Of a DNA stretch of 21,071 nt, positions 1-15,958 are shown piece after piece (position 1 is the stretch's first letter; each line of letters begins with the position of its first letter). Both the position numbers and the translations under genes were made by a program. The notes under the pieces are model-generated. The model was given only the letters and a program-made list of their open reading frames with translations. It did no database searches and was not told where the DNA came from. Source of the DNA: a virus; IMG/VR virus record IMGVR_UViG_3300025853_000814, positions 1 through 21,071 of that record; one strand, written 5' to 3'.

Positions 1-1082
1 TCAAACCTCACTCTTTTTGCATCTAAAAGTATAATTTCATCGTTTTGTTCGTCACCTCTATTAAATATTGCCCAGGTTGTTATAGCTGAATAGTCGGCTG
101 TTTCTTTTTTAGAAAAAGCTGTGTCATAACTTTGTATTACATAAGAATAAGATGGCACATCTGCGTCTTCCCATCTATTCCACCATTCTCTTTTAACTAT
201 AGATCCTTCCTCAGCTGTTGGATTTTGCATCCACTGGCTATTCCATTTAGATATAGGTAATGAGGCTTTAACACCAAGCAACTCTTCTTTTTTCCAAAAT
301 TCTGGCCATAAAGGTTTTTCAGAATCTGGTAAGATTGCAGGAAACTCAACGACTTCCCATTGATCTGCGTTTTCATCGCCTTGTTTGTTTAATACTTTAC
401 CAACCAGATCTTTTGTGCTCCATCTAGTCATTACGATCACAATAATTCCACCAGGCTGTAAACGCTGTCTTGGACCAGATGTGTACCACTCGTAAGCTGA
501 TTCTAATGCTTTCGGAGATAGCGCATCTTGTTCTGAATGTGGATCATCAATAATCAATAGATCCGCACCACGACCTGTAATAGCACCACCAACACCAGCT
601 GCAAAGAACTCACCTTCTTGGTTACTTGTCCAACGGCCAGCTGATTTGTTATCTGCTTGTAGTTGGAGATCTGGAAAAACATGTTGATAATCTTCGCTGT
701 CTATTATGTTTCTTACTTTACGGCCGAACCTAACAGCTAGTTCAGCTGTATGAGTTGTTTGTATAATTTTTAAATTGCCACGTCTGCCCATCATCCAGGC
801 AGGGAAAAAAGTTGATGCAAATTCAGACTTAGAGTGTCTAGGCGGTAGGCAAACTATTAATCTTTTAAGTTTGTTATCGGCAATTTTATTAAATTTTTCA
901 GCAATAATTTTATGATGAGATCCTTCAATAAAGTCGGGCCACATGTGTTTTATAAAAGTTATAAAGTCTTGTTGACAACCATCTTGTTTTTCTAATTGAT
1001 CATATCTATGCAATAAGGCAACAGCCTCAGCCTTGTCTTGCTCAGATAAAATATCAAAATCTTTAAAAGATACTTCACTCAT
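1..1082 (-). CDS. terL: Terminase large subunit (C-terminus cut by window edge)
   Basis: This is the DNA-packaging motor ATPase/nuclease, which acts at the portal of the procapsid. The 360 visible residues carry an adenine/Walker A region with PPRHSKSE at about 80-87, a Walker B strand LLIIDDP at 175-181, the coupling motif VMTRW at 217-221, and the first RNase H-like nuclease motif QSYDTAFS at 317-324 with the likely metal-binding Asp320. The remaining nuclease acidic residues and the C-terminus lie beyond base 1. The start MSEVSFKDFD at 1082 is the only ATG after an in-frame stop upstream; it has no clear Shine-Dalgarno sequence, and an 8-bp inverted repeat lies just in front of it. It is the last gene visible on the minus strand, directly after the lysis genes. 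Identification is secure from the motif order. Confidence 0.96.
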   Translation of the reverse strand, partial: MSEVSFKDFDILSEQDKAEAVALLHRYDQLEKQDGCQQDFITFIKHMWPDFIEGSHHKIIAEKFNKIADNKLKRLIVCLPPRHSKSEFASTFFPAWMMGRRGNLKIIQTTHTAELAVRFGRKVRNIIDSEDYQHVFPDLQLQADNKSAGRWTSNQEGEFFAAGVGGAITGRGADLLIIDDPHSEQDALSPKALESAYEWYTSGPRQRLQPGGIIVIVMTRWSTKDLVGKVLNKQGDENADQWEVVEFPAILPDSEKPLWPEFWKKEELLGVKASLPISKWNSQWMQNPTAEEGSIVKREWWNRWEDADVPSYSYVIQSYDTAFSKKETADYSAITTWAIFNRGDEQNDEIILLDAKRVRF

Positions 1083-1086
1083 AATC

Positions 1087-1131
1087 GAGCTGAGAAACAA
1101 GGTAGCGACGATATTTTATGCAACTCAGCTC
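1087..1131 (-). promoter_or_regulatory. Inverted repeat upstream of the terminase start
   Basis: GAGCTGAG at 1087-1094 and CTCAGCTC at 1124-1131 are perfect 8-bp complements separated by 29 bases. They fill most of the 85-base gap between the endolysin stop and the terminase start, and the left arm ends five bases before the terminase ATG. In mRNA this could form a hairpin beside the ribosome landing site, and no Shine-Dalgarno is visible there. A regulatory role is inference; there is no U-tract typical of an intrinsic terminator. Confidence 0.35.
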
Positions 1132-1167
1132 TAAGCGTATTAGGCCTAGGTGTAGTATTACATATCG

Positions 1168-1611
1168 CTATACTTCGTGCCATTCCTTACCCTCGAATAG
1201 TAAGGCTTCCGCATCCCTTCTTCTAATAAGTCCCTGGAGTGTCTTCCCGCCAGCCTTATTCCAGCGTTTAATTTGTGCTGGAACTTCGTCATATTTTTCT
1301 TCGTTTAAAACACGAAGCATGGTTGAACTACTTAAATTTGATGGCCCTAAATTAAAAGTCCAAGAAACTATTGCGTCATATTGATTTTGTGAAAGTGGCA
1401 CTTTTACTGCTCTGGTGACAGCTTCTTCAAACTTAGCCACGTCTTCCATTAACAATTCGTCAGCTTCTTCTTGAGTAATCTCCATATCCATAGATACACC
1501 ATGAGTAGATCCATACCCGATTGTAGGAACTCCTGCGGCGCAGTGGTATGCTTTTAATTCGCATCCTTCAAACTTTTTAATTAACGATAAACCTTCTTGT
1601 GATATTTGCAT
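1168..1611 (-). CDS. Endolysin, T4-type lysozyme (glycoside hydrolase 24)
   Basis: This muramidase cleaves host peptidoglycan at lysis. From the start MQISQEG at 1611 it is 147 aa. The catalytic cleft reads FEGCELKAYHCAAGVPTIGYG, giving Glu15, Cys24 and Thr30 in the E-8-C-5-T spacing of the family, with Cys in the place of T4 lysozyme Asp20, as in P1/P21-like lysozymes. A GGGGAG ribosome site sits 6 bases before 1611. A longer in-frame extension to 1716 would overlap the nuclease gene and adds no recognisable signal, so the shorter start was chosen. There is no SAR or signal segment, so export must depend on a holin. It starts one base after the SNase gene stops and sits with spanins, so it is part of the lysis cassette. 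Confidence 0.93.
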   Translation of the reverse strand: MQISQEGLSLIKKFEGCELKAYHCAAGVPTIGYGSTHGVSMDMEITQEEADELLMEDVAKFEEAVTRAVKVPLSQNQYDAIVSWTFNLGPSNLSSSTMLRVLNEEKYDEVPAQIKRWNKAGGKTLQGLIRRRDAEALLFEGKEWHEV

Positions 1612-1612
1612 G

Positions 1613-2008
1613 TTATTCTCCCCATACTTTAGTTTTTTTCCCACCATCATAGTCAACAGCGAGATTTTCTTTTTTAAGCAAGTCAGCAACATTTCCTTTA
1701 CTACAGAAAATATCACCTAATACTCTTCCATATTTGTCGGTGCCATAAGATTTTAATGTTATGTTGCCTACCAACCATTCTTTCATTTTTTGTTTTGCTA
1801 ATAACCCAAGCTCCTTTTCTTTTGCGCGTTCTGGATATTTTTTTATGTTGATCCTAGATTCTGGAGTGTCAATTTTGGCCACCCTTACAGACTTATTGTG
1901 TAATTTAACACTAAATCCTAGATCTATCGTTTCTAACCGAACAGTATCACCGTCTATAACTTTTTTGAGTTCACAATTATATACAAAAGCATCTGGAGTT
2001 TTACTCAT
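1613..2008 (-). CDS. Staphylococcal-nuclease-like (thermonuclease) protein
   Basis: A 131-aa SNase-fold protein. Visible family residues are the DGDTV turn at 19-23, Arg42, Asp47 and Glu50 in VRVAKIDTPES (same spacing as R35, D40 and E43 of the archetype), and a second Arg at 95 in DKYGRVLGDIF. The family hydrolyses DNA and RNA with calcium. No signal peptide is seen, so it would act in the cytoplasm, perhaps in host DNA breakdown for nucleotide salvage or viscosity reduction before lysis; that role is inferred. It overlaps the outer spanin stop by 8 bases and abuts the endolysin, so it is co-expressed with lysis genes. Length is typical of compact phage SNase proteins. Confidence 0.9.
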   Translation of the reverse strand: MSKTPDAFVYNCELKKVIDGDTVRLETIDLGFSVKLHNKSVRVAKIDTPESRINIKKYPERAKEKELGLLAKQKMKEWLVGNITLKSYGTDKYGRVLGDIFCSKGNVADLLKKENLAVDYDGGKKTKVWGE

Positions 2009-2390
2009 CTTCTTTATCCTGTTTTGTAGTTACTTTTCTATAATACACCACAACATCTTTAAGTTCAGTTATGTAGCGTTTGATTTCTTGCATGTTATAG
2101 GCCATTACTTCGTAATCTGGTATTGTCATGGCTAAAAACAATATTTCACCTTCTTGTTCTTCTATTAAAGCTAATTGTTCTTCCCAATTATCTGGTGTTA
2201 CAGCTATCCACATTGGTTCTTTTAGATCTATTTCTCTAGGCATTACTGGTTGTACTATGGTTCGGTCCATAGGCTTTGCAGTTATTTCTATTTGTTTAGT
2301 CGGAAGAAGGCTGCAACTGCAAGCCATCATCAAGATCATCAACAGTGACGCTGATTTTCTCGATGTCCTCCATAATATGCTTTGTTCCAT
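2001..2390 (-). CDS. Putative outer-membrane spanin lipoprotein (Rz1-like)
   Basis: A 129-aa predicted lipoprotein. Residues 1-23 form a short basic n-region and a hydrophobic stretch (SLLMILMMA) ending at Cys24, with Cys26 as an alternative lipidation site. The mature part is mostly polar and acidic with a Pro-containing segment near 38-65. The first 95 bases lie inside the end of the preceding gene in another frame, the classic Rz/Rz1 overlapping arrangement, and the preceding gene looks like an inner-membrane spanin. A purine-rich AAAGGAAAA lies about 9 bases before the ATG. It is longer than lambda Rz1. The spanin assignment rests on lipobox, overlap and position between holin-like genes and endolysin; no sequence family was recognised. 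Confidence 0.6.
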   Translation of the reverse strand: MEQSILWRTSRKSASLLMILMMACSCSLLPTKQIEITAKPMDRTIVQPVMPREIDLKEPMWIAVTPDNWEEQLALIEEQEGEILFLAMTIPDYEVMAYNMQEIKRYITELKDVVVYYRKVTTKQDKEDE

Positions 2391-2691
2391 TATTTATTTT
2401 CCTTTGCATTTCTTCTGGATCTGCAAGTATTTTTGCCGACAATTGATAATTTTGTATAAACTGTGTATATCTATTTAACTCTCTTTGTGCGGCTTGGCTT
2501 TTAACAGTAAGCTCATTCATTTGTTCAGTCTGTAACGCAAAATCATTTTGAAGTGATGTTATGGCTTCCTCTTGCGTTGCTATAGCGCCTTCTAATACAA
2601 GATTATTCGCAGTTAATGTTTTGTTTTCATTAAACAAATAGTAGGTTGTAAAACCTAAAAATAATATTATGCCTATAAACACTTGTTGCAT
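2296..2691 (-). CDS. Putative inner-membrane spanin (Rz-like)
   Basis: A 131-aa protein with one N-terminal membrane anchor (about residues 3-20, VFIGIILFLGFTTYYLF) followed by a long heptad-like helical region (about 22-120) rich in Gln, Asn, Glu and Leu, with no Cys. This is the architecture of an i-spanin: N-in anchor and periplasmic coiled coil that fuses inner and outer membranes with the o-spanin. Its 3' end contains the start of the lipoprotein gene in another frame. Its start shares TAATG with the stop of the gene before it. Alternative: any phage coiled-coil membrane protein, but the paired overlapping lipoprotein makes spanin the best reading. Confidence 0.65.
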   Translation of the reverse strand: MQQVFIGIILFLGFTTYYLFNENKTLTANNLVLEGAIATQEEAITSLQNDFALQTEQMNELTVKSQAAQRELNRYTQFIQNYQLSAKILADPEEMQRKINNGTKHIMEDIEKISVTVDDLDDGLQLQPSSD

Positions 2692-2930
2692 TAAATTTCC
2701 TCTATTATGTAATTAAGGCCACCTGCACTTCTGTATTCAATAATACAATCATCTTCGTCCCTAAATTTTAAGTGTTTTTCTTTTTGCACTAAAATTTTTT
2801 TGGTAATAAATGTTCGATCATCTGAGTCACCATATTCTTTGTTAAATGACACTGTCACTTTATACCTAGTTTGAAATAAAGATAAAAACCAATTAAAAAC
2901 CCATATACTTAATTTTTTTAAATTGTCCAT
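2691..2930 (-). CDS. Hypothetical 79-aa protein
   Basis: No family recognised. Residues 8-20 (SIWVFNWFLSLFQ) form an amphipathic or short membrane-associated helix; the rest is charged and beta-rich, with TRYKVTVSFNKEYGDSDD and a Lys/Glu/Asp-rich centre. It overlaps the adenylate cyclase 3' end by 13 bases and couples by TAATG to the spanin gene, so it belongs to the same operon. Its position between the sensor cyclase and the lysis genes does not by itself suggest a function. Confidence 0.75.
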   Translation of the reverse strand: MDNLKKLSIWVFNWFLSLFQTRYKVTVSFNKEYGDSDDRTFITKKILVQKEKHLKFRDEDDCIIEYRSAGGLNYIIEEI

Positions 2931-4666
2931 ATTTGTAACGCGTCTTTTTTACCTTTTACTTTAATAGGTTTTAGAGACTTTAACACAAGTTTGCAATTTT
3001 TTGCAGTTTCTTGCCCAATTAAAATATCTACACCAACTTCTTTGGTTGCCGACTCTAATCTTGCAGCTGTGTTTACAGGATCACCGATTGCCGAATAATC
3101 AAACCGAGTATCAGATCCCATATTACCAATCACTGCTACTCCCGACTGACATCCTACTCCTACCTGGACTGGAGTAGATAAAGTTTTGTTAAGCTCGGCT
3201 ATACCTTTTTGAATATCTATAGCAGCCTGGACAGCTTTTGTTTCTTGATCTTTAAGATCTAAGGGCGCTCCAAATATAAACATACCTGCGTCCCCGATAA
3301 ATTTGTCCGTCATTCCGCCAAGTTTTTGCACGGCGTTGACCTGGACTGTTAAAGTTTTATTCATTATGTCGGTGACTTCCTCTGGTGGCAGTTTTTCACT
3401 TAAAGATGTAAAACCACGAAGATCTGTAAATAAAAATGTGCAGTATTTTTTCTCGCCACCGAGTTTTAATAGATCTGGATTGTCCTGGAGCTGTTTAACT
3501 TGTCTCGGATCTAAGTAATGTTCAAACTGTTTTTTGATCTGTTGACGTAATTTAAACTGTTTTCTAAAGTTTAAATAGAAGGCAACAGCTCCTGCAATAA
3601 ATTGTGATACGAAAGTCCATGAAAAATCTATTAAATAGCCTTTTTGCACGCTAAAAAACTCTGAGAAAGCCGCTGTGATAAGTAAAATTACAGCTATACT
3701 TACACCCTTGGTTATACCGAGATAATTGATTACAAGCCACGTCAGCGACACAAATATTGCAAAAATTAAAATTTCGGCCGCTAAATGCCAATCTGGGATT
3801 TGTGGAGAGTTTTGTATCAAAATTGACTCAGATAATGCTGCTTGAATCTTGTGAGGTTCTAATAAACCGACTGGGGTTGCAATTTGTGGTTGGATTCCTG
3901 CGGCGGTAATTCCGATAAATACAAATTTACCAGCAACATTCATTTCTTCTAAATTTGTTTCTGGTGTTTTTACCCAGCTGATCCATTTTCTTCCAAAATT
4001 ATCTGTAGGTATTGGTGGCAATCCTCTGACTGCAATTTCTTGTATGCCATTTTCATTCGTGGTAATAATATAGCTTCTGGTTTCAGTTAATACTTTTAAA
4101 ACTTCTGTGCCAAAAGAAGAAACATAGCCGTCTGGTGTTTTTAATAATAATGGTATTCGTCTTACCAGGTTGTCTATGTCAACTGGTGCAGTAGCTATAC
4201 CTTGATTTGCATTATTTTGTAGTATGTTGATATTTTGTACTACACCTGGAGTAAGCATACCACCAACGTCATTACCTTTTATAATTGTTCCTGTAGTTTT
4301 TGGATATTTACCATTGTCATTTTCAAACATTGCTAACACAGAAGGTGCATATCCGAGTGTTTGTGCGAATACCTCGTCACCGCCCATTCTGTCTGCTTGT
4401 GGAAAAGCTATTACCCATCCAACTCCCATAGCTCCTGCATTAATAAGATCTATTTGTATTTGTGCGAGAGTTTGACGCGGAAAGGGCCAGCCACCTTCTT
4501 TTGCTACATCTTCTTCTGTAATATTTAAAACGACAAAATTACCAGAAGGTTCTTGTTCTGCAACCAGTGCATCAAATATTTTTAGTTTAAGTATTTCTGT
4601 CGGTGTTGATTGAAACACCAAAGGTAAAATTAGTATTATAAGTATAGGTAATAATAGTCTTTTCAT
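2918..4666 (-). CDS. CHASE2-domain class III adenylate cyclase
   Basis: A 582-aa membrane cyclase predicted to make cAMP from ATP. Order: N-terminal membrane helix 4-19; periplasmic CHASE2 sensor about 25-285; three membrane helices near 295-316, 320-340 and 345-366; a short linker helix; cytoplasmic cyclase domain about 405-580. Catalytic residues are visible: metal-binding Asp415 (FTDLRGFT) and Asp459 (FIGDAGMFIFG), Lys455 for adenine recognition, Ser525 in the partner position, and the transition-state pair Asn532/Arg536 (VNTAARLES). Nothing essential appears lost, so it is probably active. It couples through TAATG to the FecR-domain gene just upstream. The sensor ligand is unknown. A full CHASE2 cyclase is exceptional cargo for a phage; the identification itself is strong. 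Confidence 0.95.
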   Translation of the reverse strand: MKRLLLPILIILILPLVFQSTPTEILKLKIFDALVAEQEPSGNFVVLNITEEDVAKEGGWPFPRQTLAQIQIDLINAGAMGVGWVIAFPQADRMGGDEVFAQTLGYAPSVLAMFENDNGKYPKTTGTIIKGNDVGGMLTPGVVQNINILQNNANQGIATAPVDIDNLVRRIPLLLKTPDGYVSSFGTEVLKVLTETRSYIITTNENGIQEIAVRGLPPIPTDNFGRKWISWVKTPETNLEEMNVAGKFVFIGITAAGIQPQIATPVGLLEPHKIQAALSESILIQNSPQIPDWHLAAEILIFAIFVSLTWLVINYLGITKGVSIAVILLITAAFSEFFSVQKGYLIDFSWTFVSQFIAGAVAFYLNFRKQFKLRQQIKKQFEHYLDPRQVKQLQDNPDLLKLGGEKKYCTFLFTDLRGFTSLSEKLPPEEVTDIMNKTLTVQVNAVQKLGGMTDKFIGDAGMFIFGAPLDLKDQETKAVQAAIDIQKGIAELNKTLSTPVQVGVGCQSGVAVIGNMGSDTRFDYSAIGDPVNTAARLESATKEVGVDILIGQETAKNCKLVLKSLKPIKVKGKKDALQIWTI

Positions 4667-5790
4667 TAATTACTCTGCGTTATTTTAATTGTAGAGTCAG
4701 ATCCACCGTTTACTCTCACAACATTTGATTTACCATCTTGTATAAAAATGACGGTATATGATCCGCCGCCGTCTATATCAACACGAGCAGAGCCGCTAAC
4801 ATTCCTTCGTAAACTTACAACCTGGCCTGTAACAATAGTTGTAATCTGCGTTTCTGTGTCCTGGCCTATTGCTGTACCAGCAATCTTAATACTAGTGGCT
4901 TGCTGTAACTGATCTTCTTCCTCTTGCACTTCTAAAGCATCTAAAACATTAAGCATATCTTCTAAAAAATTAACATCCAGGTAGTTTATATCTAGCTCTG
5001 TAAAAGTTAGATCTTCACCTAAAAAATCTTCTGCCAAGTAATCTACATCTAAGTCATTAAAATCTAAAACATTGTTTTGTTTTGCAGATACTTGTGCGTC
5101 GCTTATTTGTTCTTTTTCTTCTGGTGGAGTAACGATAAGCATGTTATCAAGCATTTCTAAACTAAGATCTAATATTACTGGTTTGCTTGGATTGCTTTCA
5201 AAAACTGAAATAGTTGTTGCCTGGAAAGGTTTGTTTAATAACACAGATCCTGTGGCAGTAATTACTTCAATCTCACCACTTGATAAACCGAGAGCATCTG
5301 GAAGTAACACTATAAGACTTTTGCCCAATTCGTCCACCGTAACCGAAAAATCTGTTCCTCTAATCGCGATGTTTGCAGTCGGTGTTTTTAGCTTTATGTT
5401 TTGCTTATCTATACGGTTTAGGTTGCCAGTTATAAACCTAGCTGTACCAAGTCCAAAAGTAAGGGCCATTTTAGACTTAGATGGATCTGGATCAAAAATA
5501 TACTCGTCTACAATTAGCTGACTATGCTCGGTCAGTCGGACCGTACTATCATCTAAAAAAGTTATGGCCATGCGGCCGTTGTTTGTTATAGCCTCATCGT
5601 TTTGCTGAATAGCAAACTGTATCTCTGCTGGATAGGCTTGATCTCTAACGATTTGTGCTTGGCCGTTAAGCTCAGATATATCGCCTATATCAGCAGCTTG
5701 TGCTTGTGCCTTGGTCGTTTTGAATGACACAAACAGTAGAAGTATTACTGCCTGTATTGTTGGATATAGATATGATCTTAAGCCAGTCAT
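4666..5790 (-). CDS. Exported FecR-domain protein with acidic repeat tract
   Basis: A 374-aa protein with a signal peptide (hydrophobic 12-24, likely cleavage after an AQA motif near 30-32) and a FecR-type beta domain at about 40-155, ending in the hallmark TANIAIRGTDFSV (139-150). A segment near 240-300 is rich in Asp, Glu, Leu and Tyr and repeats the pattern DxDYL/DINYL/DVNFL. The C-terminus is beta-rich with Gly and Ser. No lipobox or TonB-related partner was seen, so it is likely a periplasmic or surface sensor/scaffold rather than the iron-citrate regulator. The start at 5790 lies 101 bases inside the curlin-like gene and is needed to give the signal peptide; no Shine-Dalgarno is visible there, so translation is probably coupled. 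It is linked to the CHASE2 cyclase by TAATG. Confidence 0.88.
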   Translation of the reverse strand: MTGLRSYLYPTIQAVILLLFVSFKTTKAQAQAADIGDISELNGQAQIVRDQAYPAEIQFAIQQNDEAITNNGRMAITFLDDSTVRLTEHSQLIVDEYIFDPDPSKSKMALTFGLGTARFITGNLNRIDKQNIKLKTPTANIAIRGTDFSVTVDELGKSLIVLLPDALGLSSGEIEVITATGSVLLNKPFQATTISVFESNPSKPVILDLSLEMLDNMLIVTPPEEKEQISDAQVSAKQNNVLDFNDLDVDYLAEDFLGEDLTFTELDINYLDVNFLEDMLNVLDALEVQEEEDQLQQATSIKIAGTAIGQDTETQITTIVTGQVVSLRRNVSGSARVDIDGGGSYTVIFIQDGKSNVVRVNGGSDSTIKITQSN

Positions 5791-6427
5791 TGTCTTGGGT
5801 ACTCAATTGTTGCACGTTAAAGGTCATATTATTACCTGTTTGATCTAAATAAAAATAACCGCCTGCATATCCAGAACCAGTGAAATTAACAGTGTTCGAG
5901 TTTCCGTCGATGTCCATATAATTTGTGGCTCCGTCATAGTTAATATTACTAGTGACTTGGTTTCCAGTACCGTTAATTATCCAATCAAGATCAAGTGTAG
6001 CAGCAAGTGCAGTTGTGCCGTGGTTAAGGGTAAAGGTGTTAGTGCTACCAGTTACATCGACGTTATAATTTGAGTTATCAATACCGTAGGTGTTTGTAGG
6101 ATCGCCTTGTATTGTAAAAGTATTGCTATCGCCATCAAACTCAAAAAATCCTGTTACGTTATCTCCCCATATATCTCCAAGAAATTTATTGGTATCACCG
6201 ATTTGATTTATGTCAAGCGTAAAAGCATTTCCGTCTAAGTCGAAAGGGGTTAGGGATCCAGCTGAGGATAAGAGTCCTCCTATAATATTGCCAGAGCCAA
6301 GCTGTTCTAAATCTATGTTTACAGTGGTACCAGATTGATCTATGAAGATTTCATTATCAGCCGCGTATGCTGGCGATACAATCAACATCATTATCATCGC
6401 AAGGTTTATCAATTTTAATTTCTTCAT
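5690..6427 (-). CDS. Curlin-like secreted repeat protein
   Basis: A 245-aa exported protein, the probable substrate of the neighbouring CsgG/CsgF. Starting at MKKLKLINLAM it has a clean signal peptide with cleavage after SPAYA (about residue 22). The mature chain is rich in Asn, Thr, Asp and Gly and has about eight to ten irregular repeats of alternating strand residues, e.g. NAFTLDINQIGDTNK, SNTFTIQGDPTN and SNTVNFTGSG, like the N/Q-G spaced strand-loop units of curlins. Two cysteines close the protein (about 233 and 245). A longer in-frame start at 6469 only adds a segment ahead of the signal peptide. Its 5' end overlaps csgG by 71 bases and its 3' end overlaps the FecR gene by 101 bases. 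It could be a minor or nucleating subunit; assembly into fibres is inference. Confidence 0.82.
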   Translation of the reverse strand: MKKLKLINLAMIMMLIVSPAYAADNEIFIDQSGTTVNIDLEQLGSGNIIGGLLSSAGSLTPFDLDGNAFTLDINQIGDTNKFLGDIWGDNVTGFFEFDGDSNTFTIQGDPTNTYGIDNSNYNVDVTGSTNTFTLNHGTTALAATLDLDWIINGTGNQVTSNINYDGATNYMDIDGNSNTVNFTGSGYAGGYFYLDQTGNNMTFNVQQLSTQDNDWLKIISISNNTGSNTSTVCVIQNDQGTSTSC

Positions 6428-7238
6428 GCTTCCAAAATCTCCTGTCGTAGCCGACTTTAATAAGCTCAACCACTGCTGCTTCTATTGATTTCATCAAAGC
6501 AATAGTAGTGCTCTCGTTACGCGCTGATCCGATTTCTAATTCCACAAGTTCCGTTCCAGACTCATAAAATTTGAAGACATCGTTTGATCTTCCGTAACTA
6601 TAAATGGTTTTTTGGCTTAAAACTTCTATAAGAATTTCACCAGTTGCGACTGAAACCATCCGCAAACTAACGCTTACGGTATCTTCTCGATATTGCGCAC
6701 TACCAGACACACCGAGAAAGCGGGCACCAGCGCCACCACTTTTTAAGTTTGTATCATAGCTTATCACAGATCCTTCGAGCAAGACACCTGCAAACAGCAG
6801 TGGTGGTACATTCTTTTCTTCACCCTCTTTTGCAAACTGTTCTCTTGCTGAACGTATAAGCTGTCTCTCTTTTACAAGGTTATCTAGGCCCACACGCTCA
6901 ACTACACGAAAAAACTCACCGTTAGACGCATGCTTTAGTGCTCGTATAAGTAAAGTGCTTGGCTGTTGAGTTATGGCCGTGCTAAATAAAGCAAACTCGC
7001 TGTTGCTTTTTCTTTGTCCAGTTTGATCAGTAAAAGCAGTTGCATAAACAGCTACTACTGGCTGTACTTCTGGTTTTTGTATATTTTTTAATTCTTCTGA
7101 TTGTAAAGAAAAAATACTTGCTTCTGTTAATCCTTTACTTGGAAACCTTTGTGCAAAGGTATCTTCTTGAACATCGACTATAGCGCAACTAGAAAGTAAA
7201 AGAACCAATAGGAAGGGTAATTTCTGTAATGTTGCCAT
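6357..7238 (-). CDS. csgG: CsgG-family curli secretion pore lipoprotein
   Basis: A 293-aa outer-membrane channel protein of the curli (type VIII) secretion system. Signal peptide with lipobox LSSC puts lipidation at Cys18. Conserved CsgG stretches are visible: AVYATAFTDQTGQ, FSTAITQQPSTLLIRAL, FFRVVERVGLDNLVKERQ, SYDTNLKSGGAGARFLG, VSLRMVSVATGEIL and a C-terminal YDRRFW. Against E. coli CsgG, the constriction Phe56 appears retained (FSTAI), while Tyr51 and Asn55 are replaced and one residue is inserted; this is a by-eye alignment. Length matches the family. It overlaps csgF by 50 bases and the curlin-like gene by 71. A GGAT ribosome site precedes the ATG. No CsgE, CsgC, CsgB or CsgD homologue is seen nearby. 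Confidence 0.96.
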   Translation of the reverse strand: MATLQKLPFLLVLLLSSCAIVDVQEDTFAQRFPSKGLTEASIFSLQSEELKNIQKPEVQPVVAVYATAFTDQTGQRKSNSEFALFSTAITQQPSTLLIRALKHASNGEFFRVVERVGLDNLVKERQLIRSAREQFAKEGEEKNVPPLLFAGVLLEGSVISYDTNLKSGGAGARFLGVSGSAQYREDTVSVSLRMVSVATGEILIEVLSQKTIYSYGRSNDVFKFYESGTELVELEIGSARNESTTIALMKSIEAAVVELIKVGYDRRFWKHEEIKIDKPCDDNDVDCIASIRG

Positions 7239-7692
7239 CGGGATCCGTTATTTTTAAAGTTATAAATTGTCCATCGCTAGTGTAAGTTATTATATTACCT
7301 TCTAGCTCAATAGTCCCAGATGTAGAGGCTGTATCTCCAAAGAGGTTTTCTACTAGCTGTCTTGAAAGCTGTGCATATATTCTGGACTCCAGGTTACGAA
7401 TGAATCTAGCTAAAGTTGTGTTTTCTTTATCACGCTCTATTTGCTCTTGTAGTGCCTTTATTTCTTCTTTTATGGACATTTTACGATTAAACTCTTGGTT
7501 CTCAATCGTAAGATAGTGACTAGAAGTTCCGATACCAGAAAATGAAGGTGACTTAAATTTATGAACTATCTGGTCAGCTGCAATGTTTTGCACAAATACG
7601 CCAAAAAACAAAACAAAGCCTATAGCAACTAGAATTTGTATTGTAAAAAGTTTTTCTGCTTCTTCTTTTTTATTTTTTTCTTTGTATATCAT
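7189..7692 (-). CDS. csgF: CsgF-family curli assembly factor
   Basis: A 167-aa partner of the CsgG pore that caps or extends the channel at the surface and couples fibre growth to export. The CsgF fingerprint is visible: after the signal segment, FKSPSFSGIGTSSHYLTIENQ matches the pore-binding N-terminus (FRNPNFGGNP in E. coli). Further along come FIRNLESRIYAQLSRQLVENLFG and a C-terminal strand domain with ITYTSDGQFITLKITDPDGN. The membrane/signal helix is at about 15-37, with predicted cleavage after IAA. It differs from the enterobacterial protein in a long charged n-region (KEKNKKEEAEK) and an extra charged helix near 72-92. No Shine-Dalgarno is visible; the start lies 23 bases inside the upstream gene, which argues for coupling. 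Confidence 0.92.
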   Translation of the reverse strand: MIYKEKNKKEEAEKLFTIQILVAIGFVLFFGVFVQNIAADQIVHKFKSPSFSGIGTSSHYLTIENQEFNRKMSIKEEIKALQEQIERDKENTTLARFIRNLESRIYAQLSRQLVENLFGDTASTSGTIELEGNIITYTSDGQFITLKITDPDGNITEITLPIGSFTF

Positions 7693-7927
7693 CTTTTTTT
7701 TGTTGTCTGATTTTAGTTACAGTATCAACCTTCTCTTTTAATCGTATCATATCCTGGTCTAAAAGTCGTAGCTGGTCCGTCAACCTAATAATAGTCTTTT
7801 TCATTTCACTTATAGATGGATCTATGGTGTTGTTAATAGTTTGCCAAACATAGAACACAAAATATCCCAGGCCAATTACCATTACAGTTGGAAAACCAAA
7901 TTTTTGTATTAAATCAACTATTTCCAT
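7670..7927 (-). CDS. Small single-pass membrane protein with coiled coil (paralogue B)
   Basis: An 85-aa protein with one membrane helix at about 13-32 (FPTVMVIGLGYFVFYVWQTI) and a charged coiled-coil tail ending in a Lys/Arg-rich segment, KIRQQKKDDIQRKK. It resembles the preceding 98-aa protein: short leader, G-P turn, helix ending GYF.F, then an Asn-Asn and an Ile-rich coil. The two look like a tandem duplication. It couples by TAATG to that gene and overlaps csgF by 23 bases, so it may be an accessory of the curli module or a holin/antiholin-type lysis protein. No family recognised. Confidence 0.75.
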   Translation of the reverse strand: MEIVDLIQKFGFPTVMVIGLGYFVFYVWQTINNTIDPSISEMKKTIIRLTDQLRLLDQDMIRLKEKVDTVTKIRQQKKDDIQRKK

Positions 7928-8223
7928 TAATCGCGTCTAGCATCAATCTTGCCGTCTTCAACAAAGTTTTCTGCTCTAGCGATTCGTTCAAGATCTGGAG
8001 GTATGTCAAGCGCACTTGACACTACTGTATCGATTCTAATAATGTCGTTGTTCATTATTGAGGCTCTAGTAATAAGCATTTTTGTAATGCCCTGGATAGA
8101 TTTAATGTCAGATACTAGATTATTCATAAGCTGTCTGATTATAAGAAATATAAAATATCCCATAATCAAGCCGCTTGCGATTGGTAGGCCTACGTCGCCG
8201 ATCAAGCCTATGGCTTGGTTCAT
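7927..8223 (-). CDS. Small single-pass membrane protein with coiled coil (paralogue A)
   Basis: A 98-aa protein with one membrane helix at about 13-33 (LPIASGLIMGYFIFLIIRQL) and a polar helical tail ending in acidic and Arg residues. It is similar in layout and in several positions to the 85-aa product that follows it. It is joined to both neighbours by TAATG overlaps (at 8223 and 7927), so the genes are probably translated in series. Role unknown; a membrane-bound oligomerising accessory of lysis or of the curli module is possible. Confidence 0.75.
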   Translation of the reverse strand: MNQAIGLIGDVGLPIASGLIMGYFIFLIIRQLMNNLVSDIKSIQGITKMLITRASIMNNDIIRIDTVVSSALDIPPDLERIARAENFVEDGKIDARRD

Positions 8224-8609
8224 TATTTATCTTCGCCTTTAAACCCTTTACTTTGTCCAGATTTACCCGAATAAACTCCAAAGACAACACCCATAGCACC
8301 TACAACAACTGAGACTAATGCTGATTGTTCTAGGTTAGGATCTGGCAGGTTCATAAACCAAATAACAGACTCATACATAAGATAAATATAAACCACAACA
8401 AATATCCTAGGAAATATTCTCCAGGCATCTATTGCTCTAGCTAAGTGAATTACTTTTTGCCAGGGGTTTATATTTGTTTCGTCTTCTAAGTCTCTAATTT
8501 TTTCTTTTAGCTCACCAATTTCTTGAATCATAGACATGAACTTGTTTAGATCCATTTCTACTTCATTACGATCCATGTCTCCGCCAAATCTTCCGCTTCC
8601 TTCGTGCAT
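8223..8609 (-). CDS. Two-helix membrane protein, putative holin
   Basis: A 128-aa protein from the start MHEGSGRFGG at 8609. Residues 19-45 form a predicted coiled coil. WRIFPRIFVVVYIYLMYESV at about 63-82 is the first membrane helix, and 96-113 (QSALVSVVVGAMGVVFGVY) the second, followed by a Lys/Gly-rich tail. Two helices with a basic cytoplasmic tail next to lysis genes fit a holin. The start at 8609 shares TAATG with the upstream stop and has a GAGG about 8 bases ahead; an ATG at 8663 is in frame but would overlap the previous gene. The holin role is inferred from topology and place, and the genes at 8609-8791 and 8972-9142 are competing candidates. Confidence 0.6.
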   Translation of the reverse strand: MHEGSGRFGGDMDRNEVEMDLNKFMSMIQEIGELKEKIRDLEDETNINPWQKVIHLARAIDAWRIFPRIFVVVYIYLMYESVIWFMNLPDPNLEQSALVSVVVGAMGVVFGVYSGKSGQSKGFKGEDK

Positions 8610-8791
8610 TATATAAACCTCGCTAGTATTACTGCTCCAACTATAAATGGGTAAACGGCCCATATCATGTTTTCTAATTTATCAAAACGCTTAGATCCGT
8701 CTTCTAATCTTTTATCAATACTTTTATACAAAGCCTTACACTCTCTTTCGTGAGACTCTATTGCATTGAGCGCATCTTTTACTGTAGCCAT
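8609..8791 (-). CDS. Small tail-anchored membrane protein
   Basis: A 60-aa protein: a charged helical N-terminal half (DALNAIESHERECKALYKSI and onward to about residue 42) and one C-terminal membrane helix (MIWAVYPFIVGAVILARFI). It starts at the TAATG that ends the previous gene and ends at the TAATG that begins the putative holin. Tail-anchored proteins of this size next to a holin can act as partner or antiholin, but no family was recognised and the role is open. Confidence 0.7.
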   Translation of the reverse strand: MATVKDALNAIESHERECKALYKSIDKRLEDGSKRFDKLENMIWAVYPFIVGAVILARFI

Positions 8792-8979
8792 TATTCGTTA
8801 TTGTCGATAGATACCTTTGCAGGCCTACCTCTTTTTTTTCTTACTGTTGTGTAAGCCTCATTAACATCTGGAGTCGATTTATCATCTGCAACATAATGGC
8901 CTTTTTTATTTCTTGATCTGACTTTTACACGCTCAGTGCCTGTTACTTTATCCCAAAAATTTGACCACCAGCTACTCAT
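8791..8979 (-). CDS. Small basic protein with AT-hook-like motif
   Basis: A 62-aa hydrophilic protein. It begins with a Trp-rich segment (SSWWSNFWDKV) and has an AT-hook-like core RKKRGRPAK at about 47-55, which in other proteins sits in the minor groove of AT-rich DNA. An AAGGA site precedes the ATG. The 5' end overlaps the 56-aa gene by 8 bases and the 3' end couples by TAATG to the next gene. DNA binding is suggested only by the short motif; it could equally be a virion component. Confidence 0.65.
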   Translation of the reverse strand: MSSWWSNFWDKVTGTERVKVRSRNKKGHYVADDKSTPDVNEAYTTVRKKRGRPAKVSIDNNE

Positions 8980-9142
8980 TGTGCTTTTCCTTGGCTTTTA
9001 GAACATTTAACGCACACCAGTCAATGATGCGATAAAGTTTGCCTAACCACCAATTTCCCTGTGGTGTTGGTGTGACAGCTGCAACAAATGATGCAATAGC
9101 TATTATGGTTGTTATCCATGAAAATATATTAAGAATTGTCAT
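8972..9142 (-). CDS. 56-aa membrane protein, holin candidate
   Basis: A short open frame starting MTILNIFSWITTIIAIA, with one membrane helix at about 5-24 and then TPTPQGNWWLGKLYRIIDWC and an Ala-Lys-rich end. The TPTP turn, the Trp-Trp pair and the LYRIIDW segment resemble small membrane proteins I have seen near lysis genes of marine phages (from memory, not a search). It uses the TAATG at 9142 that also ends the 64-aa gene, and overlaps the next gene by 8 bases, so real translation is likely. It is a second holin candidate beside the 8223-8609 gene. Confidence 0.7.
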   Translation of the reverse strand: MTILNIFSWITTIIAIASFVAAVTPTPQGNWWLGKLYRIIDWCALNVLKAKEKHNE

Positions 9143-9336
9143 TAATCATCTCCTTTTGTTTCTGTATCTTTTTCAAGATCAGTAGTTATTTCTTGGTCAG
9201 CAAACTCTTTAAGTTGCTCAACCACGTCTTTTCTTAAAATAGCAACAGTTTCTAACTCTTCACCATTCCAAGTCCCTCTTTTACTAGCTACATCAATAAT
9301 TTGTAACATGCCTAATAAAAATTGTTTTTCATCCAT
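9142..9336 (-). CDS. Hypothetical 64-aa acidic protein
   Basis: A soluble, mostly helical protein: MDEKQFLLGMLQIIDVASKRG followed by an acidic tail (TTDLEKDTETKGDD). A good AAGGAG lies 8 bases before the ATG, unlike the coupled genes downstream, so this may be the entry point for ribosomes on the following small-gene run. No family recognised. Confidence 0.75.
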   Translation of the reverse strand: MDEKQFLLGMLQIIDVASKRGTWNGEELETVAILRKDVVEQLKEFADQEITTDLEKDTETKGDD

Positions 9337-9661: not shown

Positions 9662-12600
9662 TTATTCTCCTTTTAAAATTGTAATTTCTTGTTTTAATTG
9701 GTCTACTGTTGTAGACAGCTCTTTCACTGCGTTTATTAAGTACCAAGTTAGATTATCAGCGTTTACAGTTTTTACTCCTGAAGATTCTATTGTAATTATT
9801 TCAGGTAAAACTTTTTCTATTTCTTGAGCTATAACACCAAGTTGTATACCTTCTTTTTTTACAGCTAAATTACTTGGTAATTCTGTTACCTCATCTTCAG
9901 TTCTATATTCAAAATTTCTTACTTGGATATCTTTGAGTTTATTTAAACCTTCATTGTTATCTACAATATTCTTTTTAATTCTTTTATCAGAAGTTTGTAA
10001 AAAAGAAGTTCCGTTTGTAGCTTGGTAAATACCACCACCACCAGGCGGGTAGATTTTTCCTGTATTATTTCCTTGTCCAGAAACAGCGTTTCCTATAACT
10101 AACTCAGAAACACCACTACTACTAACATTAGCTTCTTTACCTATAAGAATACAACTGCTACCAGTTGTTAATGCATTTCCTGAGTTGTAACCTACTGCTG
10201 TATTATTAGAACCTGTAGTTACATATTGAATTGCACCTACGCCCATACCAGTATTATCAGTACCTGTAGTACATCGTCTAAGAGCTTCTGTGCCAAAGGC
10301 TGCATTATCATTACCTGTTGTTACTTCGTTTAAAGTAAAGTAACCAAATCCATTGTTACTTTCACCAGTAGTATTAGCTGAACAAGTATTTGAACCATAT
10401 GCTGTTGCACCATGATATGTACTTACAGTTAAACAATTTTGACCAACAGCAGTGCTAGAAAAGAAAGCGTGGCTGCTTCTTAAAGCATTTATCCCAACAG
10501 CAGTATTATTTTGACCATTGGTTCCTGCAATTGACATACCAGCTTCCATACCAAAACAAGTATTACCAGAACCTGTATCAAACTGTCCACCAGCATTGAA
10601 TCCCATAATTGTATTGTTACCACCAGTGGTAATAGCATCACCTGCTATTGAACCTACTATAGTGTTTTGAATACCAGTGGTTAAAAGTCTTGCGGCATGA
10701 TAACCAACAGCAACATTATTCATATCTACATTACCGCTTGGATTTTGTGTAAACAATGCATTTGTGCCTACTGCTGTAGACTGATCTCCAGCCACGTTAG
10801 CTCCTAAAGCACCAGAGCCTATTGAAACATTTGAAACACCAGTTGTGTTAGCGTCAAGACACACATATCCGATAGCTACATTTTCTTCACCTGTCGTGTT
10901 AGATGTTAGAGAGTCAGAACCTATGGCTATGTTATAAGCACCAGTCGTATTAGCATCTAACGATTGAGCACCTAATGCTGTATTGTCAGCACCAGTCGTA
11001 TTAGCTCCTAGTGCCGCATAACCCATTGCTGTATTGTTGCTACCCGTTGTATTAGCGTCTAATGAAAAAGCACCAAAAGCATTATTTCTAGTACCTGTAG
11101 TCAATGCAGCCAATGCTGTATGACCAAATGCTGATTGATAAGACTCAGTACAGTTTGTCATAGCACCATAGCCAACAGCAGTATTAAAACTTGCTGATGT
11201 ACCTGCATCTAAAGCATTTTGACCAACTGCTGTATTTTGAGCACCAGTTGTATTTGCTCCCATAGCACCTTGTCCGATAGCTGTGTTGTCGTCACCCGTT
11301 GTATTAGCGTCAAGGGCTACATCACCAACAGCTACGTTTCTGTTTCCAGTAGTGCTATTGTGCATTGATTGATAACCAACAGCAGTGTTTTCAGCTCCAG
11401 TCGTATTACTTGTAAGTGAGTTAAAACCTAAAGCTGAGTTTCTACTAGCTGTTGTATTAGCATCAAGAGCATTTGCACCAACAGCAACATTATTTGTACC
11501 AGATGTATTGACATGTAAAGCCTTATATCCAACACCAGTATTATTAGATGCTGTTGTTTGAACAGTCATTACAGCATGTCCTATACCTGTATTGTTAGAA
11601 CCCGTTGTTATTGCATCAAGTGTCAATGCACCTAATGCAGCATTAAAAGAAGCTGTAGTGTTTGCTGCTAAAGCTGAATAACCAACAGCAACATTATACT
11701 CACCAGTTGTGTTTGAAGTTAAAGATGAACGACCTAATGCTGAGTTAAAGGTACCAGTGGTGTTAGATTCCATTGATGCTTGACCAACTGCTGTATTATA
11801 GTGAGCAGTAGTATTAGCTGTTAATGCTCCACCACCGATAGCTACATTGGCATTACCAGTTGTGTTTGCATCAAGAGCTAAAGAACCAACAGCTACGTTT
11901 GTATTACCTGTAGTGTTTGATAATAAAGAGTGTTTACCGATTGCTGTATTATTGTCAGCAGTTGTATTAGCTTCTAAAGAACTTCTACCAATAGCTACGT
12001 TAGAACTACCAGTAGTATTAGCAGTTAAAGAATAAGAACCTATCGCTACATTTTGTACGCCTGTAGTTAATTTAGTAAGTGATTGAAAGCCAACGCCTGT
12101 ATTTTCATCACCCTCTGTTAAATCATCAAAAACTTCCCAACCTAAACCTGTATTATTAGAAGCAGTAGATAAAGTACCTGTACCTGCATCATTACTAATA
12201 AGTATGCTGTTTGCAAAGTTTGTTATATTAGAAGATATACCTACGCCATTGATTGTGCTTGAACCTGTAATAGCTCCATCTACTTGTAAAGTAGAAGCCA
12301 TATCTACAGCACCATCTATATCTACTACATCTAGGTTAGTAGTACCATCTACGTCTATATCGCCTGAGATGTCTAGTGAGGTTGCTGTTAAAACTCCAGT
12401 TACGCCTAAAGTACCACCAACAGTCATATCGTCAGTTACAGTTAAATCGTCTTGTACTTTTAAATCTACTACGTTAAGACTAGCAAAAGCGTCAACGACT
12501 GCTGCTCCAGATCCTGCTCCGTCTGAGTAAACTACTTTTACATCCCCTGGTGGAATAGTAATGTTAGCTCCACTACCTTGAGAAATTATTATATTTTGAG

Positions 12601-12898
12601 ATCCAGATGTGCCATTTTCAATAAACCACATTTTACTAACGGTGTTAGGGCCAATAGTAATAGTACAAGCTGAGTCAAGTGTTCCTGTATATTTTAAATA
12701 TAAAGATCTGCCTGGATCTGTGGATCCGTCTGCAATTGTTGTTGTGTGTGTATCAGCATTAGTTGTTATAGCCTCGGTGCCAAAACTAAATGCTTCTGCG
12801 ATTAATTCTAAATTGGTGTTGGTTTCCGTACCCCAAGTACCACTGGATTCACCAGTGCCAATTTCTTTTAATCTTAAATCGTTTACATAGGTTGCCAT
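9662..12898 (-). CDS. Tail fibre/adhesin with about 40 repeats and S74 chaperone end
   Basis: A 1078-aa host-recognition fibre. Residues 1-110 (from MATYVNDLRLKEIGTGESSG) look like a virion-attachment and beta-rich head region, and 130-260 is a Val/Asp/Thr-rich beta shaft. From about 263 to 937 come some 40 tandem 17-residue repeats of the form NTAVGxxALxxNTTGxx, reminiscent of trimeric autotransporter head repeats and expected to form a trimeric beta roll. The end carries a Peptidase_S74 intramolecular chaperone, starting near 971 (SDKRIKKN) with LGVIAQEIEKVLPEI, which trims and trimerises fibres, then a coiled coil. A GAGG site precedes the ATG. The repeat part is almost free of GATC, unlike its neighbours. 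No frameshift is seen. Confidence 0.93.
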   Translation of the reverse strand: MATYVNDLRLKEIGTGESSGTWGTETNTNLELIAEAFSFGTEAITTNADTHTTTIADGSTDPGRSLYLKYTGTLDSACTITIGPNTVSKMWFIENGTSGSQNIIISQGSGANITIPPGDVKVVYSDGAGSGAAVVDAFASLNVVDLKVQDDLTVTDDMTVGGTLGVTGVLTATSLDISGDIDVDGTTNLDVVDIDGAVDMASTLQVDGAITGSSTINGVGISSNITNFANSILISNDAGTGTLSTASNNTGLGWEVFDDLTEGDENTGVGFQSLTKLTTGVQNVAIGSYSLTANTTGSSNVAIGRSSLEANTTADNNTAIGKHSLLSNTTGNTNVAVGSLALDANTTGNANVAIGGGALTANTTAHYNTAVGQASMESNTTGTFNSALGRSSLTSNTTGEYNVAVGYSALAANTTASFNAALGALTLDAITTGSNNTGIGHAVMTVQTTASNNTGVGYKALHVNTSGTNNVAVGANALDANTTASRNSALGFNSLTSNTTGAENTAVGYQSMHNSTTGNRNVAVGDVALDANTTGDDNTAIGQGAMGANTTGAQNTAVGQNALDAGTSASFNTAVGYGAMTNCTESYQSAFGHTALAALTTGTRNNAFGAFSLDANTTGSNNTAMGYAALGANTTGADNTALGAQSLDANTTGAYNIAIGSDSLTSNTTGEENVAIGYVCLDANTTGVSNVSIGSGALGANVAGDQSTAVGTNALFTQNPSGNVDMNNVAVGYHAARLLTTGIQNTIVGSIAGDAITTGGNNTIMGFNAGGQFDTGSGNTCFGMEAGMSIAGTNGQNNTAVGINALRSSHAFFSSTAVGQNCLTVSTYHGATAYGSNTCSANTTGESNNGFGYFTLNEVTTGNDNAAFGTEALRRCTTGTDNTGMGVGAIQYVTTGSNNTAVGYNSGNALTTGSSCILIGKEANVSSSGVSELVIGNAVSGQGNNTGKIYPPGGGGIYQATNGTSFLQTSDKRIKKNIVDNNEGLNKLKDIQVRNFEYRTEDEVTELPSNLAVKKEGIQLGVIAQEIEKVLPEIITIESSGVKTVNADNLTWYLINAVKELSTTVDQLKQEITILKGE
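10085..12108 (-). repeat. About 40 tandem 51-bp repeats in the tail fibre gene
   Basis: The DNA repeats with a 51-base period, each unit encoding 17 residues with N-T/V-A-V/I-G at the start and T-T-G near the end. Copies are diverged but keep blocks such as accagt(t/c)gtatta and caacagc. The last few units toward 10085 are less regular. Such arrays change length by slippage or recombination, altering fibre length and perhaps receptor choice. Confidence 0.9.
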
Positions 12899-13797: not shown

Positions 13798-15138
13798 TTA
13801 TTCTACCTCGAATATATCTACATCATTAGGGTTGTAGTTTTTTGTAAATTTTTGTAAACTATTGTTGATGGAAAAATTTGATACATTATATTTTGCGTGG
13901 GAAGATGGTCCTGCTGTATTAGCACCAGTCGGTGACGGAGATCTGGGATATTTTATATCTCCAGGTAAGTCTGATTGGACACTAGCAGAGCCAAGCCAAG
14001 TTGCAGACTTTTTCGTCGACGGCTCAAAAATATCTAAAGACGCATTTGAAAAAACATTTGGTGTCATTGGAGCCGATCTTCCAGAACTTCCAGCTGTAAC
14101 ATAACCACCACTAGCAAACTTTTTAACTTCTGGTACATAAAAATCTGGATCTATTTGATTTCTTGCGTTTCCAAAAACATCACCCATGCCTTTTTGTAAG
14201 GCCTCACCTTTAAGTCTTATGTCTCTGCCTATTGTTTGTAATTCTTTTGAATCTGTTGGCATGCCTTTCGGGAATAAAGATCTAAATTCTTCATATAAAA
14301 CGTGCGCTTCGTCTGAGGCTCTCCACATAGGAGCTGTAATAATACCCACCTCTGCAACTAACTTTTCACCGTTAGCTCCAACAAATTGAATATTTAGTTT
14401 GCGGTCAACAAAACCTTCTGGCTTAATGTCGCGGCCTTTATCAAAGAGTTTGTATTGGTTTTTCATAAGATCTACAACAGCTTCTTCTTCGGCTGGTGTA
14501 TTAACCACAATTCTAGTTCTAATCGGATCTGTTAGCTGAGTAACATCTTTGTCGTATTTTTTTCTGGACTTTTCTACCATCCTGGGTATTTTTTTCACAG
14601 TACCAAGTTTTTGGCCCGTAGCTGCATCAATTTTAGTCGTCATTTCTGGAAGAGTGGTTTCGAGATTTAAACTTTTTGCAATATCGTCTATTTGTTGATT
14701 AAACTCTGGAGCTAAACGAACAGCTCGATCATACATCTTATTTGCATCACCTAAAGGATTGCCTGTATATAGATCTTCCTGGTGTCTTGTTATTTCGTAT
14801 CGAGGATTGTTGCTAGGTAAACTTTGAATACCTTTTTTTAAAGGCTGTTTGGCTAGGTTGGCCAGCTCACCAACTAAGGGTACAGCTGCGAGTCCAGATA
14901 ACGCCGCGATACCAAGATTACCAAATCCACTGCCAATATTACCTTGTGAAAAATCTTTAAAAGAATCACGGCCATATTTACCAGCTGCGGCAATATCCAT
15001 GGCCATACCTGGAGGAGTAAAGCCAGCAGCTATTTGGCCGAGTAGAGGTACGTTTTCCTCGTAGCCTTCAACCGCTCGATCTAACAGATCTTTGTCAGCT
15101 GCACCGCCTTGTTGGAATATGTCAATATCTTGATACAT
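13798..15138 (-). CDS. Protein with a RelA/SpoT-like nucleotidyltransferase domain
   Basis: A 446-aa protein. Residues 33-95 are Gly/Ala-rich and hydrophobic (FTPPGMAMDIAAAGKYGRDS and an ALSGLAAVPLVG stretch), as in proteins ejected with phage DNA. Residues 145-290 resemble a divergent RelA/SpoT synthetase fold: DPIRTRIVV at 204-212 (place of the metal-binding DIxGxR strand), EGFVDRKLNIQF at 241-252, then AEVGIITAPMWRASDEAHVLYEE at 262-284, like the EIQxxT...H.LYE segment. The canonical GYRSxH segment is absent, so activity (ppGpp-like transfer versus a toxin or binding role) is uncertain. The C-terminal 100 residues are Ser/Pro/Gly-rich and probably disordered. It lies between the recombinase and tail genes. 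Confidence 0.6.
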   Translation of the reverse strand: MYQDIDIFQQGGAADKDLLDRAVEGYEENVPLLGQIAAGFTPPGMAMDIAAAGKYGRDSFKDFSQGNIGSGFGNLGIAALSGLAAVPLVGELANLAKQPLKKGIQSLPSNNPRYEITRHQEDLYTGNPLGDANKMYDRAVRLAPEFNQQIDDIAKSLNLETTLPEMTTKIDAATGQKLGTVKKIPRMVEKSRKKYDKDVTQLTDPIRTRIVVNTPAEEEAVVDLMKNQYKLFDKGRDIKPEGFVDRKLNIQFVGANGEKLVAEVGIITAPMWRASDEAHVLYEEFRSLFPKGMPTDSKELQTIGRDIRLKGEALQKGMGDVFGNARNQIDPDFYVPEVKKFASGGYVTAGSSGRSAPMTPNVFSNASLDIFEPSTKKSATWLGSASVQSDLPGDIKYPRSPSPTGANTAGPSSHAKYNVSNFSINNSLQKFTKNYNPNDVDIFEVE

Positions 15139-15144
15139 TCCATG

Positions 15145-15172
15145 ATTATAACTAAATCTCTAGGATTTTCTA
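15145..15172 (-). promoter_or_regulatory. Candidate promoter before the RelA/SpoT-like gene
   Basis: On the minus strand, a perfect TATAAT lies at 15150-15145, with a weaker TAGAAA 16 bases upstream as a -35. The start codon (15138) is only 6 bases past the -10, so a transcript starting here would be leaderless or nearly so. A second possibility is that the sequence is a chance AT-rich match. Confidence 0.3.
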
Positions 15173-15958
15173 TTCGTGGAGGCCTTGGAATTTTCTTTTG
15201 AGGATTCTTTGGACTTTGTGATACGGGAAGTCCTCGTATCCAGCGTGTGAACTTTGGATCTGAGTAGCTATCTTCCTGGCACCTAGGCCTTGATCTCTGA
15301 GCGCTTTAATATGTCTTAGCACTGCTTGCTCCTCTGGTACTGGCACTAGTTTAGTTCTTCTTCTGCTACCAGATTCGTCGTATTCTTTTCTATAGCCAAA
15401 AGGTGTCTTGCCACCGATCGAGTAACCTTTTTCTGCGTAGACCAGCTTGCCACCGTTGAGCCTGGACATAATCATTTCTCTCTCGATTTCAGCGAACTGC
15501 GCCATGTTAGTCACTAGGTTTTGGTTAGCTATCCTGGTCATATTCATTTTTGCTGCTAGACCAGATTGTTCTTTTTGCTTAGGCAGGACCACTGGTATGT
15601 CTGCAAACATATCGCAGAAGTAAAGTGTGATCCCAGTTTCCTCAAGCGTAGGAATCATGTTAACCATTTCTAAAAAGGATCTTGCAAGCCTGTCGAGCTT
15701 GGTTGCTACTATCACGTCGTTAGCATCCATGGTATCAGTCAGCTCTCTGGATCCTGGCCTTTCGAGTAATGGCTTCATGCCACTTATACCAGCGTCGGTA
15801 AAGAACTGATCGACTTTCCTACCGCCGTATTTGTTGGCCACAAACTCTTCAATCGACTTCTTTTGCTCCTCTAGGGAAGATCCATCCCTGGCCTGCTGCT
15901 CAGATGATACTCTGATATAGCCGTAGATATTGTTTACTTGTTTTCTTGGTTCAATCAT
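15170..15958 (-). CDS. Serine recombinase (resolvase/integrase family)
   Basis: A 262-aa site-specific recombinase. The N-terminal catalytic domain (about 10-155) has YGYIRVSSEQQ with the nucleophile Ser18, the ISGMKPLLERPG loop, and DVIVATKLDRLARSF carrying the DRLxR arginines. Residues 170-255 form a Recombinase-type/DNA-binding region (GYSIGGKTPFGYRKEYDESG, then a helix-turn-helix-like segment). It is longer than small resolvases and much shorter than large serine integrases. An AAGGAG site precedes the ATG, and it overlaps the previous small gene by 8 bases. It may act in integration, genome resolution or inversion; no att or res site was located. A temperate life cycle is a possibility, not a conclusion. 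Confidence 0.92.
   Translation of the reverse strand: MIEPRKQVNNIYGYIRVSSEQQARDGSSLEEQKKSIEEFVANKYGGRKVDQFFTDAGISGMKPLLERPGSRELTDTMDANDVIVATKLDRLARSFLEMVNMIPTLEETGITLYFCDMFADIPVVLPKQKEQSGLAAKMNMTRIANQNLVTNMAQFAEIEREMIMSRLNGGKLVYAEKGYSIGGKTPFGYRKEYDESGSRRRTKLVPVPEEQAVLRHIKALRDQGLGARKIATQIQSSHAGYEDFPYHKVQRILKRKFQGLHE

Follow-up and report, generated by a model that had tools for sequence, protein, structure and literature searches.

Relation to described phage curli modules

The combination of genes examined here was already in print in 2022 (Wittmers et al., PMC9599517). Type VIII secretion (T8SS, curli) modules containing FecR and adenylate cyclase genes are described from podophages of the HTVC023P type and from pelagimyophages, with an alphaproteobacterial origin; these phage modules are reported without CsgE, and histidine kinase genes are annotated ahead of csgF (PMC9599517). 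For the phage Melnitz, a role in lysis has been proposed for the CsgGF pore (PMC9004378). The text of PMC9599517 mentions neither CHASE2 nor CRP, and a literature search for phage adenylate cyclases as a phrase gave no match.

The window, meaning the whole stretch of 21,071 bases that was analyzed, has nearly all of its recognizable genes on the minus strand. What it has in common with the pelagiphage T8SS module is CsgF, CsgG, a curlin-like gene, FecR, and an adenylate cyclase in one conserved block. Its terminase is closest to those of 023Pt_psg01 (61%), HTVC027P, and HTVC023P, and the curli-FecR-cyclase block is present in both HTVC008M and Melnitz. Taken with the published module, these observations make the window a further member of it, so that the FecR-CHASE2-curli module cannot be claimed as novel. 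What can be added to the published description is the CHASE2 domain on the cyclase, a bacterial FecR-CHASE2 pair as the source, and the finding that CRP-type domains are largely absent.

HTVC008M and Melnitz differ from the window in having an extra gene between FecR and cyclase, whereas in the window these 2 genes overlap directly, without a second curlin gene between them. The window cyclase is 31-34% identical to the HTVC008M and Melnitz cyclases. Downstream (3') of the module, there are lysis genes in the window, in contrast to tail or unassigned genes in HTVC008M and Melnitz.

The curli cassette and its neighbors

The module and its flanking genes, with their supporting matches, are these:

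1168 to 1617, minus strand: phage lysozyme (endolysin), PF00959, E = 3e-49
2001 to 2691, minus strand: Rz/Rz1-like spanin pair downstream of the cyclase, phrog_739 and phrog_812
2918 to 4666, minus strand: CHASE2 class III adenylate cyclase, Pfam PF05226 and PF00211, with conserved catalytic residues and an AlphaFold model
4666 to 5790, minus strand: exported FecR-domain protein, presumed periplasmic partner of CHASE2, PF04773, with a signal-peptide-like N-terminus and a 1-nt overlap with the cyclase
5690 to 6427, minus strand: curlin-like (CsgA/B-like) secreted repeat protein, G-x-x-N turns and weak Curlin_rpt
6357 to 7238, minus strand: CsgG outer-membrane secretion pore lipoprotein, PF03783, E = 4.5e-48
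7189 to 7692, minus strand: CsgF, PF10614, E = 2.7e-16
7670 to 8223, minus strand: 2 small single-TM coiled-coil proteins of 85 and 98 aa preceding csgF, phrog_18771

With these scores for CsgG and CsgF, the curli genes neighboring the pair are genuine. The curlin-like label is the weakest identity in the module. In its favor, invariant G-x-x-N turns are repeated throughout 23 homologs, and 10 of the 23 family members have weak Curlin_rpt matches (best E = 0.002), but the window copy itself has no Pfam match over the cut-off. The FecR/cyclase pair was described at the outset as sitting directly after this gene, and the arrangement is even closer than that, as the final 101 nt of the curlin-like gene overlap the FecR signal-peptide region in a different frame. 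Out-of-frame overlaps of successive genes recur through the cassette, at 101 nt (5690-5790), 71 nt (6357-6427), and 50 nt (7189-7238); in each, the end of one gene also encodes the signal-peptide region of its successor, and many relatives have similar overlaps.

The 85- and 98-aa genes are paralogous, and relatives occupy the same site in many viral modules. They match the site of the published histidine kinases by position alone, and a kinase domain was not found in them by Pfam or NCBIfam. They may be the genes published as histidine kinases, and that label in the pelagiphage modules may itself be wrong. A holin identity for the small TM genes was considered and dropped, there being one weak match, to phrog_4898 at E = 0.001.

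Downstream (3') of the cyclase are encoded the spanin pair, a nuclease, the lysozyme, and the terminase, and this neighborhood bears on the suggestion in the preliminary description that the pair perhaps times lysis. In such a scheme, FecR-CHASE2 would read the envelope state late in infection and cAMP would trigger the holin/endolysin step. The window module does lie between small holin-like TM genes and the spanins, lysozyme, and terminase, lysis or terminase genes are within 4 kb in 35 of the 52 relatives with 2 kb of downstream sequence, and the lysis role proposed for the Melnitz CsgGF pore points the same way. The other 17 relatives, however, are without such genes nearby, HTVC008M and Melnitz follow the module with the tail or unassigned genes mentioned above, and the neighborhood looks like a late-gene position. 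Because the lysis-gene neighborhood is lineage-specific, lysis timing is a weak explanation, to which we give a small chance.

Elsewhere in the window, all on the minus strand, a 446-aa protein (13798-15138) has a RelA/SpoT-like match that at E = 0.0017 is weak and below cut-off, making it a possible second nucleotide-signaling gene of this phage. A 544-aa protein (19010-20644) has a PBECR5 nuclease-like domain (E = 1.2e-19), a serine recombinase/resolvase (15170-15958, E = 6e-26) is encoded near the tail genes, and a 1078-aa tail spike-like protein (9662-12898) has numerous repeats of the N-T-A-x-G type and ends in a Peptidase_S74 chaperone.

The CHASE2 cyclase

The 582-aa cyclase consists of an N-terminal TM segment, a periplasmic CHASE2 domain, a TM bundle, and a cytoplasmic catalytic domain of the homodimer type. 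Pfam places CHASE2 at residues 11-305 (PF05226, E = 3.6e-29) and Guanylate_cyc at residues 407-577 (PF00211, E = 9e-18), and the initial coordinates and domain calls for both this gene and FecR hold. The AlphaFold model has a mean pLDDT of 84.5, with TM, sensor, TM bundle, and catalytic domain as expected and helices at 2-18, 294-316, 318-341, and 349-381; a simple hydropathy scan flags 3 of the 4 TM segments. The catalytic part resembles the structures of CyaC, CyaB, and the photoactivated cyclase OaPAC. A sequence search of solved structures finds no match for the CHASE2 half, and with matches restricted to the catalytic part, the sensor fold has no placement.

The metal Asp pair, the substrate Lys and Ser/Thr, and the transition-state Asn and Arg are all found (D415, K455, D459, S525, N532, and R536) and are kept in 79 to 80 of 80 aligned homologs: D415, K455, D459, and R536 are without change, 79 have S or T at position 525, and 79 have N at position 532. 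The first description, of a complete membrane-spanning cyclase whose CHASE2 domain lies outside the cytoplasm, is thus supported. K455 and S525 align with the K and T of the Pseudomonas aeruginosa adenylyl cyclase CyaB, whereas Cya2, a guanylyl cyclase, has E and G at these sites; this residue match suggests that the substrate may be ATP rather than GTP and that the enzyme probably makes cAMP. Pairwise dN/dS (omega) for the cyclase is 0.08-0.19, which together with the conserved catalytic residues indicates a gene kept functional. In the Melnitz cyclase (locus L083, 8917-10965), the catalytic Asn is replaced by S and the S/T at substrate position 525 by D, so that the activity of this enzyme may differ.

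The FecR protein

The cyclase and FecR genes share one base at a junction, ATTAATGAAA, that reads TAATG in the sequence, confirming the coupling initially noted. The 374-aa FecR product has a FecR domain (PF04773, E = 2e-10) after a signal-peptide-like N-terminal helix, so that its description as a secreted FecR-like protein paired with the cyclase is sustained. Its omega is 0.05-0.17, and the 2 genes are thus both under purifying selection, at about 0.05-0.2. The AlphaFold model, at pLDDT 43.7, has as its sole confident part a C-terminal beta domain at 300-374, which ends with a conserved I-x-I-x-Q stretch. Weak similarity to Leptospira surface proteins is seen. A sequence search of solved structures finds no structure, and a fold assignment was dropped, given the poor model and structural alignment (VIA-align) rows that are all at Z ≤ 3.3.

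In PMC9599517, FecR is named as an iron-citrate regulator, which would tie the curli module to iron supply. The presence of the PF04773 domain is what speaks for this. However, the protein has a signal-peptide-like start, PF04773 is the only domain that Pfam detects, with no N-terminal cytoplasmic anti-sigma domain found, the window genes searched include neither a FecI sigma factor nor a FecA receptor, and FecR domains of this kind adjoin CHASE2 receptors in many bacteria. We consider an iron-citrate function very improbable.

Linkage across viral relatives

A complete virus-encoded transmembrane cyclase had been thought rare, which is contradicted by at least 599 relatives in a single viral scan; the curli-FecR-cyclase module is common in ocean phages. 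FecR is upstream of the cyclase in 73 of the 74 loci with upstream sequence, at a spacing of −10 to +30 nt in 70 of the 74, most often −1 nt (45 loci), followed by −4 (14) and 0 (8). All 31 loci having 4 kb upstream show the order csgF-csgG-csgA-FecR-cyclase, as does the window. When viral loci are anchored on CsgG, FecR is found in 35 of 35 and the cyclase in 28 of 28, and when they are anchored on FecR, the cyclase is found in 69 of 69. The independent CsgG and FecR anchors agree with the cyclase anchor, and the lack of conserved linkage that would have told against the preliminary description is not seen. Linkage of FecR, cyclase, and curli genes is near-obligate among viral relatives close to the window, and being drawn from these, the counts overstate its generality.

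Bacterial origin of the FecR-CHASE2 pair

FecR-CHASE2 is a pair borrowed from bacteria. Phage cyclases are placed by the tree beside a mostly alphaproteobacterial clade (SH-aLRT 99), several members of which have FecR upstream, and FecR adjoins the cyclase in 19 of 79 bacterial loci that encode cyclase relatives (13 upstream, 4 downstream, and 2 opposite). csgG and csgF are absent from all 79. The phage cyclases cluster with 2 sequences from bacterial bins, L084 and L086, and L084, which has the module's small TM genes as well, is probably phage DNA. Read most simply, FecR and CHASE2 arrived together as a sensor pair and were then joined to curli export.

Clusters of FecR and CHASE2-cyclase genes are known in Campylobacterota (PMC9239204). 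In these and in the alphaproteobacteria, FecR is by a CHASE2-class III cyclase with the domain order of the window, but unlike in the window, the loci seen are without curli genes; the bacterial cyclases are 25-42% identical to the window cyclase across the matched part. In a Burkholderia biofilm operon (BiofilmReg), a FecR-domain protein likewise adjoins a CHASE2 receptor, but that receptor has a histidine kinase as its output, and its FecR neighbor contains LysM (PMC5192318). CyaD1, CyaD2, and CyaK of Sinorhizobium are CHASE2 class III cyclases of the same type as that of the window. In S. meliloti, NsrA, a protein of the outer membrane, conveys the signal that activates such cyclases (PMC13001267), and CyaD1 without CHASE2 gives constitutive cAMP (PMC5498481). 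The view of CHASE2 as an extracytoplasmic sensor is thereby supported in kind. The Sinorhizobium output is the CRP-family regulator Clr, for which no counterpart was found for the window phage.

The bacterial loci also bear on whether FecR is instead a structural or gating part of curli secretion, as a CsgE substitute or fiber anchor, with the cyclase riding along or draining ATP. The lack of CsgE in the reported phage modules is compatible with this, as are the position of the FecR gene between the curlin-like gene and the cyclase, the C-terminal beta domain with its conserved end, and the weak similarity to Leptospira surface proteins. Against it, the active site and FecR spacing are maintained in divergent loci with omega below 0.2, and bacterial FecR pairs with CHASE2 cyclases without curli genes. 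This reading seems to us improbable.

Host and cAMP receivers

The SAR11 family used here is defined by exact match to a SAR11-specific 16S probe sequence. The probe has no match in the order of genome G001, and at class level it matches 2 genomes, both in the family used for the 99-genome counts. A class III cyclase match is found in 3 of the 99 SAR11-family genomes, and the 2 cyclases above cut-off (G421 and G457) share contigs with the only 2 CsgG genes among the 99. The G421 contig matches window positions 1-9167 at 93.6%, so a close relative of the window phage has been binned with a SAR11-family genome, which suggests SAR11 as the host. The module-bearing phage contigs in SAR11-family bins are G421:C1 (L169/L172) and G457:C11 (L170/L173).

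The cNMP-binding domain PF00027 is present in 5 of the 99 SAR11-family genomes, leaving 94 without a CRP-type domain, and in none of the 36 cyclase-bearing phage records, of which HTVC008M and Melnitz are complete and most others fragments. These absences disfavor CRP-type control of the host, and the output is probably not via a CRP-type regulator. The earlier idea that cAMP raised by the phage changes the physiology of its host thus meets no evident receiver if SAR11 is the host. A more specific form is that phage cAMP reprograms the host through a regulator of the CRP type, in the way that curli are controlled in gammaproteobacteria. The adenylate-type residues of the class III cyclase and the control of csgD by cAMP-CRP in E. 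coli (cited in PMC9599517) fit it, and with the SAR11 assignment suggestive, the phage could have another, CRP-bearing host; given the scarcity of PF00027, it is nevertheless unlikely. Universal stress protein was tried as an alternative cAMP receptor and rejected, being present in 18 of 60 SAR11-family genomes, which is too patchy.

Proposed mechanism

The explanation we favor, with moderate confidence, is a sensor pair borrowed from bacteria, in which FecR, located in the periplasm, informs CHASE2 of curli export or of the state of the envelope and CHASE2 then switches the cyclase. The FecR-CHASE2 pair would have been taken as a unit from alphaproteobacterial-type modules and joined to the phage curli (type VIII) secretion cassette. 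Once exported to the periplasm, FecR would most likely touch either the envelope or the CsgG/curlin export machinery, and would bind or release the CHASE2 domain; CHASE2 would in turn restrain or activate the cytoplasmic cyclase dimer, which would convert ATP to cAMP. The identities of the genes, the intact active site, the near-obligate linkage, the purifying selection, and the origin of the pair are computed results; we infer the FecR-CHASE2 contact, the sensed signal, the specificity for adenine, and any cAMP effect. A bolder proposal, which we hold to be doubtful, is that the phage brings an envelope-sensing cAMP circuit to a SAR11 host without a class III cyclase or CRP-type receptor, where the cAMP would have a phage or host target not yet described, making the circuit a second-messenger pathway imposed by the virus and connected to curli export.

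If the favored model is true, very common ocean phages install a sensor tying curli export to the synthesis of a second messenger, in hosts seemingly without the standard cAMP receiver. The purpose of phage curli modules could then be tested directly, with export sensing, lysis, and host reprogramming as the alternatives, and an unknown cAMP target would be implied in SAR11 or SAR11 phages.
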